A DNA stretch of 37,825 bases from Lachnospiraceae bacterium (GTDB lineage: Bacteria; Bacillota; Clostridia; Lachnospirales; Lachnospiraceae). Position numbers and translations under genes: made by a program. The DNA lies in NCBI GenBank assembly GCA_022766515.1, contig JALEPA010000020.1, forward strand, positions 1-37,825, written 5' to 3'. Each line of letters opens with the position of its first letter. Within the stretch, counting starts at the first letter, position 1. This document shows, one piece after another, positions 12,796 to 37,825 of this stretch. The notes beneath the pieces are model-generated. The model was not told the DNA's origin and ran no database searches. It saw only the letters and a program-made list of their open reading frames with translations.

Positions 12796-12812
12796 ATGAG
12801 CAATTTCCTATT
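12796..12812 (+). repeat. Fragment of the interspersed palindromic repeat (tail only)
   Basis: ATGAGCAATTTCCTATT is identical over 17 bases to the tail of the full repeat unit at 24675-24691. The hairpin parts are absent. It lies right after the lacI-type stop codon. Confidence 0.6.
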
Positions 12813-16398: not shown

Positions 16399-16435
16399 CT
16401 TCTTTTCCTCCCCATTTTCTTTTTTCTTAAGCAAG

Positions 16436-16480
16436 ACCAACGCCAACGCTTTGCTCTTACATTACGAGCCTTTTTCTTAT
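16436..16480 (+). repeat. Degenerate copy of the interspersed palindromic repeat
   Basis: CCAACGCTTTGCTCT matches the right half of hairpin 1 of the full units (CCAGCGTTTTGCTCT). TACGAGC followed by a T-rich tail then matches the unit tail (compare TACGAGCAATTTCTTAAT at 28645-28662). The second hairpin is deleted. It lies between the GH26-like gene terminator and the beta-helix gene. Confidence 0.5.
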
Positions 16481-21964: not shown

Positions 21965-22149
21965 TAATCCATATAGCCCAAAATGCCGGTTCCTGAATTT
22001 TGACGCCTAGCAGAAGCTAGGTGGGTCACCGCATACAAGATTTTGTCTTCCTCTGCAAACGAAGGCCTGACATCCACTTATAAATATAGGAATCCCAATT
22101 CAAAAGTGTAGGTTCAAAATATCAGAAGTTGTCGTACATTCCAGGTACT
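21965..22149 (-). ncRNA. ssrS: 6S RNA (RNA polymerase holoenzyme decoy)
   Basis: The minus strand of this gene-free stretch reads as a clostridial 6S RNA of about 185 nt. It has GATATTTTGAACC and GGATTCC near the 5' half, a long central GAAGACAAAATCTTG segment, GTGACCCACCTAGC with the hairpin CTAGCTTCTGCTAGG, and CAAAATTCAGG near the 3' end. The closing helix is visible: ATAG..CC..GAATG at 22151-22134 pairs with CATTT..GG..CTAT at 21973-21990. A good promoter (22154-22182) and a terminator (21937-21956) frame it. 6S RNA mimics an open promoter and sequesters sigma-A RNA polymerase in stationary phase. Identification rests on remembered family sequence, not a covariance search. Confidence 0.85.
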
Positions 22150-22153
22150 ATTA

Positions 22154-24604: not shown

Positions 24605-24698
24605 AAAAGAGCAAAACCAGCGTTTTGCTCTGCAAGAATTGCGAAAGAAATTCTTGGTGGCATAACACCACATTATGAGCAATTTCCTATTTAGGAAC
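24605..24698 (+). repeat. Interspersed palindromic repeat, full unit 1
   Basis: A 94-bp unit made of hairpin 1 (AGAGCAAAAC-CAGC-GTTTTGCTCT), hairpin 2 (CAAGAATT, 8-nt loop, AATTCTTG), a variable spacer, then GAGCAATTTCCTATTTAGGAAC, which itself folds (TTCCTA-TT-TAGGAA). It is immediately followed by unit 2 as a direct tandem. Confidence 0.85.
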
Positions 24699-24785
24699 AA
24701 AAGAGCAAAACCAGCGTTTTGCTCTGCAAGAATTGCTTTCACAATTCTTGGTGGTATATTTATAAGCAATTTCCTATTTAGGAAC
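24699..24785 (+). repeat. Interspersed palindromic repeat, full unit 2
   Basis: An 87-bp direct tandem copy of unit 1. Hairpin 1 and the tail are identical. Hairpin 2 has a 9-bp stem with a different loop, and the spacer is different and shorter. It lies 60 bases upstream of the secreted Ig-like protein gene. No other feature is evident in the remainder of this gene-free stretch except a small hairpin GGCTTC-TTATA-GAAGCC at 24800-24816. Confidence 0.85.
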
Positions 24786-24844
24786 AAAGCTATCTTTTCG
24801 GCTTCTTATAGAAGCCAATTTTCAACCAACGAAAGGAGATCGCT

Positions 24845-27954: not shown

Positions 27955-28572
27955 ATGCAGACAAACGAAGAACCACATTTACCGCTGCCACTCGTAACGA
28001 TTGCCTTGGTCGTGATCAATACACTGATCTTCCTCTATACGGATCTGATCTGCGACAACAACAGTGATATTATCCAATCCGGCGGACTCAGCTACCTGTT
28101 CATCACAGAGGATAGACAATGGTACCGCTTTCTCACTTCCATGTTTTTGCACCTGGATCTGGATCACATTTTCAACAACATGGTCGTACTGCTTGCCACA
28201 GGGTATTACCTGGAACATTATCTGGGACATCTCCGCTACGGGATCTTATACTTTTTATCAGGACTTCTTGCAGGTGGTACCTCTATCGTTTATAATATGA
28301 TGTTGAATGACCCGACCATTTCCGTTGGCGCATCAGGAGCTATCTTTGGCTTACTGGGAGGTCTGATCGTTGCCGTAATATCCATAGGCAGACGAACCGG
28401 ACATTATAATCTGTATCAATTGGGAATTATGGTCGTGCTGAATTTATATGCCGGATTTGCCAATCCGCAAGTCGATAATGCAGCACATATCGGTGGTTTA
28501 GTATTTGGCATTATTTTGTGCCTGATCTTGTCCCATAGACATTCCCTCGATATGACGCCTTATGGAGAATAG
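27955..28572 (+). CDS. Rhomboid-family intramembrane serine protease
   Basis: A 205-aa polytopic membrane protein. The catalytic serine is in VGASGAIFGLLGG (S127) and the histidine in DNAAHIGGLVFG (H178). The oxyanion-side HIFNNM (H71, N75) and the membrane-span layout fit the six-span rhomboid core. Rhomboids cut transmembrane substrates within the bilayer; the substrate here is unknown. AAAGGTGG is about 10 bases before ATG 27955. Repeat unit 3 starts 2 bases after the stop codon. Confidence 0.92.
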   Translation: MQTNEEPHLPLPLVTIALVVINTLIFLYTDLICDNNSDIIQSGGLSYLFITEDRQWYRFLTSMFLHLDLDHIFNNMVVLLATGYYLEHYLGHLRYGILYFLSGLLAGGTSIVYNMMLNDPTISVGASGAIFGLLGGLIVAVISIGRRTGHYNLYQLGIMVVLNLYAGFANPQVDNAAHIGGLVFGIILCLILSHRHSLDMTPYGE

Positions 28573-28574
28573 TT

Positions 28575-28662
28575 AAAAAGAGCAAAACCAGCGTTTTGCT
28601 CTGCAAGAATTGCTAATGCAATTCTTAATGGTGCTCTATTATACTACGAGCAATTTCTTAAT
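28575..28662 (+). repeat. Interspersed palindromic repeat, unit 3
   Basis: Hairpin 1 is identical to units 1 and 2 and hairpin 2 is AAGAATTGC-TAAT-GCAATTCTT. The tail starts ACGAGCAATTTCTTAAT and then stops at the edge of the 162-bp foldback element, which may have interrupted it. The unit begins 2 bases after the rhomboid stop codon and could serve as its transcript's 3' structure, though no U-tract follows. Confidence 0.8.
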
Positions 28663-36964: not shown

Positions 36965-37056
36965 ACAAGAGCAAAGCCCGCGCTTTGCTCTGCAAGAATT
37001 GCTTTCGCAATTCTTGGTGATATATCACTACACTATGGGCAATTTTCTATATAATG
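36965..37056 (+). repeat. Interspersed palindromic repeat, unit 4
   Basis: Hairpin 1 here is AGAGCAAAGC-CCGC-GCTTTGCTCT: compared with units 1-3 one A-T pair has become G-C on both sides of the stem. Hairpin 2 is perfect (CAAGAATTGC-TTTC-GCAATTCTTG). A spacer and GGGCAATTTTCTATATAATG tail follow. The unit lies between the transglycosylase gene and the FliK-like gene, both transcribed leftward. Confidence 0.85.
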
Positions 37057-37094: not shown

Positions 37095-37825
37095 TTATGA
37101 TTTTTTGGCTGTCTTGAAAGCTTCCTGATAACTAAGTACTTTACTGATGTAGCTTTTGCACTGCGATGGTATTCCGCCTGTTCGGCGCACCGTACCACTT
37201 CCTGCGTTATATGCCGCCAATGCCAGCTTGACATTTCCCTGAAATTCTTTTAACTTCTGCGCAATGCACTTTGCTCCGCCCATAATATTCTGTTCCGGAT
37301 CAAACGGATCATCCACACCCAAACCTCTTGCGGTATCCGGCATTAACTGCATGATGCCCATTGCTCCGGAGCTGGAAACATCTTTTGGATTGAAGTTGGA
37401 CTCCGCTTTTGCGATTCCTTTCAGCAGGCTCTCGTCCACACCATATTTTTTTGCTGCCTTTTTGAAATAGCTGTCATATGGTGTTGTTTTCATAGAAGAT
37501 GCCGTTGTCGTTGTTACTTTATTAGAAGTAGACTTAGAACGACTGGTTGAAGAAGTCGATGTCTTTTTCGCTCCTTGACTTTCCACATATTGCACATTGC
37601 TGCCCGTAGATGGATCTTTGTAAGTAACCACACCGGAGCGACTGTTCGTGGAAGTATCACCAGACTCTGATGATGTCTTCTGCGCTGTTTGTTCTGTCTC
37701 TTTTTGCGTCTGTAATGCTGCTTCAAAACTTGTGATGGAGGTATGTCTGCCGCTTTCCCCATGATGCGTCACCAAGGGTTTGATCTGTAATGTAGAAATC
37801 GCCTGCGTTGTCAAACCACATCCTC
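37095..37825 (-). CDS. Lytic transglycosylase (SLT domain), possibly flagellar
   Basis: The C-terminal ~125 residues form a soluble-lytic-transglycosylase domain: AKAESNFNPKDVSSSGAMGIMQLMP (catalytic glutamate in AES), then AAYNAGSGTV. This enzyme type cuts the glycan chain of peptidoglycan. The part before it is a Ser/Thr/Lys-rich linker with low complexity (about 45-110) and shows no signal peptide in the visible part. The frame is open to the window edge. A TTG at 37814 with GAGG 7 bases upstream could be the start, but the gene may also continue beyond the window. Its position beside flagellar genes suggests a role like FlgJ in opening the wall for the rod. Confidence 0.85.
   Translation of the reverse strand, partial: GCGLTTQAISTLQIKPLVTHHGESGRHTSITSFEAALQTQKETEQTAQKTSSESGDTSTNSRSGVVTYKDPSTGSNVQYVESQGAKKTSTSSTSRSKSTSNKVTTTTASSMKTTPYDSYFKKAAKKYGVDESLLKGIAKAESNFNPKDVSSSGAMGIMQLMPDTARGLGVDDPFDPEQNIMGGAKCIAQKLKEFQGNVKLALAAYNAGSGTVRRTGGIPSQCKSYISKVLSYQEAFKTAKKS

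Follow-up and report, generated by a model that had tools for sequence, protein, structure and literature searches.

A short hairpin repeat behind transcription terminators in gut Lachnospiraceae, probably a mobile element

What kind of sequence is a hairpin element of about 83 bases that is present in about 100 copies in the genome of a Lachnospiraceae gut bacterium? The question is raised by a single contig (C248) of 37,825 nucleotides, which is the whole stretch of DNA analysed and is referred to here as the window. The genome to which it belongs (G000) comprises 2.35 Mb in 283 contigs and is 90% complete. A first-pass annotation, made from the letters of the window, had described an interspersed repeat of three hairpins whose paired base changes indicated selection on folding, in RNA or in single-stranded DNA. 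That annotation described the complementary strand; the informative (sense) strand of the element is the minus strand of the window. It also passed over three features that are central to the present analysis, namely the site right behind host terminators, the copy-specific direct repeats on the flanks, and the nesting of the element in itself. The repeat is read here, with a probability of roughly six in ten, as a short, non-autonomous mobile element whose target is the 3' side of intrinsic transcription terminators.

The anatomy of the unit was built from 106 hairpin-1 places in G000 and from 103 hairpin matches in loci of other species, a few of which are matches by chance. On the sense strand a conserved ATAGGAAA.TGC is followed by hairpin 2 and then by hairpin 1. 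The 5' part reads ATAGGAAA(T/A/C)TGCTC..TA..GT(A/G)G....CCA and leads into hairpin 2 (CAAGAATTGC loop GCAATTCTTG), after which come hairpin 1 (AGAGCAAAAC GCTG GTTTTGCTCT) and a T-rich flank. The conserved GT(A/G)G lies about 10-12 nt ahead of hairpin 2 and abuts no palindrome. Terminal inverted repeats are absent, the 5' end being kept and the 3' end, which is the outer stem of hairpin 1, varying freely between species. Tandem copies are arranged head-to-tail with a period of 91-95 bp, and incomplete units are frequent, consisting of hairpin 1 only, of a unit with hairpin 2 missing, or of the 5' end only. The third hairpin of the first-pass annotation, a folding tail (TTTCCTATTTAGGAAC), is not a general part of the unit: its GGAAC part is flank that is repeated beside the copy and differs by copy. 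The reading as a plus-strand RNA of three hairpins was dropped because its tail hairpin depends on the flank. A weak third hairpin (GTGG...CCAC, between the tail and hairpin 2) is paired in 67.6% of cells, mainly in this species.

All the copies that had been named in the window are present in their places, both by reading of the window and by pattern search, the hairpin-1 pattern giving 8 strand matches in the window and 0 in shuffled windows.

12796-12811, minus strand: solo 5' end (ATAGGAAATTGCTCAT on the sense strand), between convergent genes
16434-16457, minus strand: degenerate hairpin 1, between two minus-strand genes
24608-24690, minus strand: full unit 1, with its 5' ATAGGAAATTGCTC end at 24690; covariance-model hit of 96.8 bits
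24608-24631, minus strand: hairpin 1 of unit 1
24633-24656, minus strand: hairpin 2 of unit 1
24694-24701, T-run side: flanking repeat GGAACAAA between units 1 and 2 (TTTGTTCC on the sense strand); the same 8 bases occur again at 24781-24788
24702-24777, minus strand: full unit 2, in tandem with unit 1 (94 bp start-to-start); covariance-model hit of 85.3 bits
24702-24725, minus strand: hairpin 1 of unit 2
24781-24788: flanking repeat GGAACAAA beside unit 2, from direct reading and the permutation test across all copies
28579-28661, minus strand: full unit 3, hairpin 1 at 28579-28602; covariance-model hit of 84.9 bits
36968-37050, minus strand: full unit 4, a G-C pair replacing A-T in hairpin 1 (36968-36991); covariance-model hit of 96.7 bits
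37061-37084, minus strand: hairpin 1 alone, its stem extended by CACA/TGTG; terminator-like, just beyond the stop of the gene at 37095-37814

The exchange of an A-T for a G-C stem pair, together with the change of the loop from CAGC to CCGC, was correctly noted at 36968 and 37061, and hairpin 2 indeed keeps its stem and varies its loop. Beyond the window, some copies depart from the common layout. Those at L145, L141 (RUG13384) and L161 have no hairpin 2, and their hairpin-1 stem is lengthened by bases complementary to the outside flank, such as GTAGAAA/TTTCTAC (L145) and AAATCG/CGATTT (L141); these stems look as if they had been perfected by template switching. At three loci of the genome G155 (L345, L302, L317) what follows the unit and its T-run is another ATAGGAAA-like end that has no body, perhaps left over from a tandem copy that was deleted.

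Pairing of the two hairpins is preserved across species. In an alignment of 67 units from about ten species (A1), hairpin 2 is paired in 98.7% of cells and hairpin 1 in 98.1%, and the three-helix structure contains double changes at 11 pairs (3.6 in shuffles) and in 40 cells (11.8 in shuffles, 0/500). A second set holds 75 distinct diverged members, almost entirely outside the training set of the covariance model. There 97.5% of cells pair and double changes are seen in 210 cells, where shuffles give 54 and sliding of the partner gives at most 59, in an alignment that was fitted to the covariance model and is hence biased towards the structure. The stem sequences of the diverged members plainly differ (AGGGCACCAG..., AGGGGAATGC..., AGCGTAAGCC...), and across genera the stem sequence is almost wholly replaced and the stems are retained. 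The part of the earlier claim that concerned stems with compensatory changes therefore stands, and holds across species; the folding selection that it drew from them is one of several possible readings, and selection on the RNA of one strand finds no support. Selection on sense-strand RNA alone would tolerate G-U more than A-C on that strand. In hairpin 1 of G000, G-U is found 9 times and A-C 10 times, which is no excess; in other species the counts are 24 and 15, a single position accounting for 16 of the 24, and related copies make all these counts non-independent events. With no clear asymmetry, the case for RNA-level selection on one strand is not made, and the stem matching may come from selection on the DNA or from repair that makes palindromes perfect.

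The first-pass annotation had proposed a search for further copies, and these are abundant. When up to 3 mismatches are allowed, the hairpin-1 pattern matches G000 94 times on the forward and 96 times on the reverse strand, and the reversed control 0 times; because the motif is nearly palindromic, these amount to about 95 places. Covariance-model hits number 104 in G000, 62 in G155, 60 in G172, 55 in G154 and 39 in G150. The last of these genomes is that of B. intestini, its loci being identical to LLKB01 loci, and the named relatives that carry the repeat include Butyribacter intestini TF01-11 and several uncultured Lachnospiraceae MAGs. Among the 28 genomes (28 species) of the genus, the hairpin pattern is matched in 11 and the covariance model in 16, the number of hits per species lying anywhere between 104 and 0. 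Matches of this layout are thin outside the genus: a 33-nt core pattern has 0 matches in 149 other sampled genera of the family, and covariance-model matches at E<=1e-5 occur in 8 of 334 sampled family genera, its own included. In an order-level sample the matches fall in genomes of the same family only; the large scans scored 11 candidates per genome, and their counts are lower bounds. A distant relative in another genus (L370 and L377 in G060, L372 and L379 in G404) keeps both hairpins and is missing the ATAGGAAA end; a TTATATCAT-like sequence is repeated beside it in L370 and L377. One exact match to the 22-base hairpin core in an Alphaproteobacteria MAG (L154), where the rest of the unit is absent, is taken as chance. 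The repeat belongs to none of the RNA families in Rfam 15: in a search with its covariance models at gathering score, the units drew chance-level hits only. The sole Rfam match in the window is a 6S RNA gene (21971-22150, minus strand).

The placement of the units is highly specific. A terminator-like hairpin, defined with a T-rich stretch after the stem, lies upstream of 115 of 151 units at a median distance of 11 nt, and 66% of units have one at 7-14 nt, compared with 2.8% of random positions. In a separate scan a hairpin ends just ahead of the unit in 72% of cases; shuffles and shifted positions each give 6%. About a quarter of the units have no recognisable terminator upstream. The preceding gene is co-oriented with the element in 51 of 68 cases in G000 (p=2e-4), in 29 of 30 in SUG799 and RUG13384 together (p=2e-7) and in 17 of 23 in B. 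intestini, against a background of 74 of 141 over all intergenic gaps, the gene calls being simple open reading frames. On the other side of the unit, 4 or more of the 8 nt that follow hairpin 1 are T in 87.5% of cases in G000 and in 100% in the other genomes, compared with 18% in the control, and hairpin 1 with its T-run would act as a terminator. Within the window, only the pair at 36968 and 37061, downstream of the minus-strand gene at 37095-37814, and the remnant at 12796, which adjoins a terminator-like inverted repeat (AGAGGC/GCCTCT), clearly obey this rule. Units 1-3 (24608, 24702 and 28579) are exceptions in orientation with no co-oriented gene ahead, unit 3 immediately following a plus-strand gene that ends at 28572.

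The flanks carry a further signature. The stretch that separates the unit from the stem of the host terminator, including the T-run, recurs after hairpin 1 and is specific to each copy. Similarity of the left and right flanks exceeds that of all 1000 within-genome permutations (0/1000), for G000 as well as for the diverged non-tandem set. Examples are TTTTTTACTG on both sides of the unit in L343, TTTTTTACTCT, present three times, in L299, TTTTTATTG in L333, TTTGCTCC in L336, and TATTTAAGTT, which recurs within the array of L350. The length of the repeat is variable, at about 4-10 nt, and the best cases are roughly 7-8 bp and A/T-rich. Because the length varies, shared T-richness or recombinational tandem duplication could be the source of part of the match. 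The repeats fit insertion with target duplication, blurred by composition and by old tandem events.

Presence and absence were compared between B. intestini and MSJ-13, the best available species pair. A search of MSJ-13 with the flanks of 23 B. intestini copies recovered 13 loci, with an identity of 86-89% where best alignable. One copy is common to both species (L233/L260). At L237/L261 both species have the same host terminator hairpin, and the element is present in B. intestini and absent from MSJ-13. No exact empty site was recovered; intergenic turnover is high between the two species, and apart from this one informative site their intergenic sequences have diverged too far for a scar to be defined. 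A matched site in another pair, L123:2420-2740 (RUG13384) and L169:3720-4100 (SUG799), differs in arrangement: two sense units in one species stand against a sense 5' end with an oppositely directed nested pair of hairpins in the other.

A mobile element that homes on terminators would bring together the copy number, structure, covariation, terminator position, orientation, flanking repeats, tandem period and the one presence/absence site. In the sense direction, the proposed arrangement would run from the host gene to the host terminator hairpin, then to the T-run with a few bases, the element, and a second copy of the T-run with its neighbouring bases. On insertion, about 6-10 bp at the foot of the host terminator would be copied, and the duplicated T-run would turn hairpin 1 into a new terminator. 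Ending thus in a T-run, hairpin 1 would itself offer the next target, which would explain the head-to-tail arrays. Such spread would probably be by active transposition, through an enzyme that presumably recognises the hairpin and moves the element; the 5' end would be recognised by its sequence, and the sequence-variable 3' end by its shape as a hairpin.

Several other readings have to be weighed against this one. Much of the stem matching might have come from repair at the DNA level, template switching having perfected palindromes that were imperfect, in an element whose folding is unconstrained. This agrees with the missing excess of G-U over A-C in G000 and with the hairpin-1 stems that extend into arbitrary flank at L145 and L141; it sits poorly with stems that outlast almost complete replacement of their sequence across genera, and with a hairpin 1 that is always 3'-terminal and adjoins a T-rich stretch, and we consider it rather doubtful. 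The same retention of stems across species might instead mark the units as functional parts of 3' UTRs (backup terminators, mRNA stabilisers or small RNAs) that are selected, and are spread by recombination or tandem duplication and not by transposition. Units at 3' ends, T-rich sequence after hairpin 1 and a minus-strand fold whose T-rich end resembles a terminator would all be expected of such parts. A spread of copy numbers between 104 and 0 within one genus, sites mostly unshared by the two closest species, copy-specific flanking repeats and a hairpin 1 free of G-U versus A-C asymmetry would not, and 3' UTR function is an unlikely account of the repeat.

The remaining two readings keep the element mobile and change what moves it. 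A REP/BIME-type element, formerly or remotely moved by a RAYT (an IS200/IS605-type Y1 tyrosine transposase) acting on hairpins as single-stranded DNA, would resemble the repeat in being palindromic and intergenic, in its roughly 100 copies, and in its mosaic arrays with truncated units; the conserved GT(A/G)G ahead of hairpin 2 would suit it too, and recognition of the hairpin would allow free change of the stem sequence. This becomes improbable when set against a GT(A/G)G that is separate from any palindrome, arrays that run head-to-tail instead of alternating (with one nested inverted case, at L123), and flanking direct repeats, which do not fit IS200/IS605 chemistry. Furthermore, PF01797 (Y1 transposase, IS200/IS605, RAYT) has no match in G000, G150, G155 or G172, which hold 104, 39, 62 and 60 copies, and PF00078 (reverse transcriptase) has none in G000 or G172, negatives that are weakened by incomplete assemblies (G000 is 90% and G172 83% complete). 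Mobilisation by a RAYT or a reverse transcriptase was set aside, since neither domain is found in G000 or is evidently related to copy number in the genus. A MITE of a classical DDE transposase would leave target duplications of fixed length, and the flanking repeats, which are short and A/T-rich and in the best cases measure roughly 7-8 bp, recall these. Their length nevertheless seems variable, and a transposon with terminal inverted repeats is unlikely because the 3' end, which differs freely between species beside a constant ATAGGAAA.TGC, is not conserved in sequence; we hold a MITE to be quite improbable.

A second repeat family ('B') of about 150 bp has the ATAGGAAA end in common with the main repeat, with a different body and a terminal GAGTCGCAAGCGACTC. 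Its layout is GAGTCGCTTGCGACTC ... CTCCGCGAGATGCGCATCCTCGCGGAG ... TTTTTTACTTTATAGGAAAC/GTTTCCTATAAAGTAAAAAA, and it often abuts units of the main family.

L008:1690-1850, family B in G000
L028:1594-1740, family B in G000
L003, L031, L092, L094, L013 and L025, further family B loci in G000

A variant at L074:2200-2370 and L092:12580-12720 differs in its end hairpin (AAAGTGGGC/GCCCACTTT) and in its middle part. A search of the fetched loci for a longer autonomous element with the ATAGGAAA end returned other short forms only and no coding element.

If the reading as a terminator-targeting mobile element is right, a parasite of about 83 bases spreads with little harm by landing mainly behind terminators, and builds its own terminator from the host T-run, thereby providing its next landing site. 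It would offer a concrete handle on the enzyme that mobilises the element in this major family of gut bacteria, and a warning that covarying hairpins in intergenic repeats may not be regulatory RNA. A bolder proposal, which we offer tentatively and would not bet on, is that the repeat represents a minimal mobile element of a new class, whose 5' end is defined by sequence and whose 3' hairpin is defined by shape. Such an element would home on terminators, duplicate the T-run and rebuild its target, and it would be moved by an RNA- or single-strand-based enzyme of the Lachnospiraceae that has hitherto gone unrecognised.

Among known systems, group IIC (class C) introns insert directly behind intrinsic terminators (PMC4424553). 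The element likewise lies behind a terminator-like hairpin, but its unit of about 83 nt has no intron domains and no Rfam match, and G000 has no reverse transcriptase. The orientation of these introns relative to the upstream gene is the same as that of the element. The element also has flanking direct repeats, whereas to our knowledge introns make none. REP/BIMEs are high-copy intergenic palindromes with mosaic arrays and paired stem changes (PMC2817692). The element is similarly abundant and mosaic, with paired changes in its stems; it differs in having no RAYT in high-copy genomes, a head-to-tail arrangement, a GT(A/G)G off the palindrome and a terminator-specific site. Tests of membership in the REP/RAYT group and among the group IIC introns fail. 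The pneumococcal BOX, RUP and SPRITE are small modular Firmicute repeats enriched at gene 3' ends, SPRITE being terminator-like (PMC3049150), and the element shares these properties. By description it is set apart from BOX, which is composed of boxA, boxB and boxC modules, by its ATAGGAAA 5' end, two hairpins and site behind terminators. Bacterial MITEs are like it in being short, non-coding and dispersed with apparent target duplication, and unlike it in that the element lacks terminal inverted repeats; a parent transposon was not found for it. Searches of a literature collection that covers few subscription journals returned no described family of this kind, nor the combination of a terminator-specific site, a self-renewing target and a shape-defined end. 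The element is accordingly filed among the small palindromic mobile repeats.
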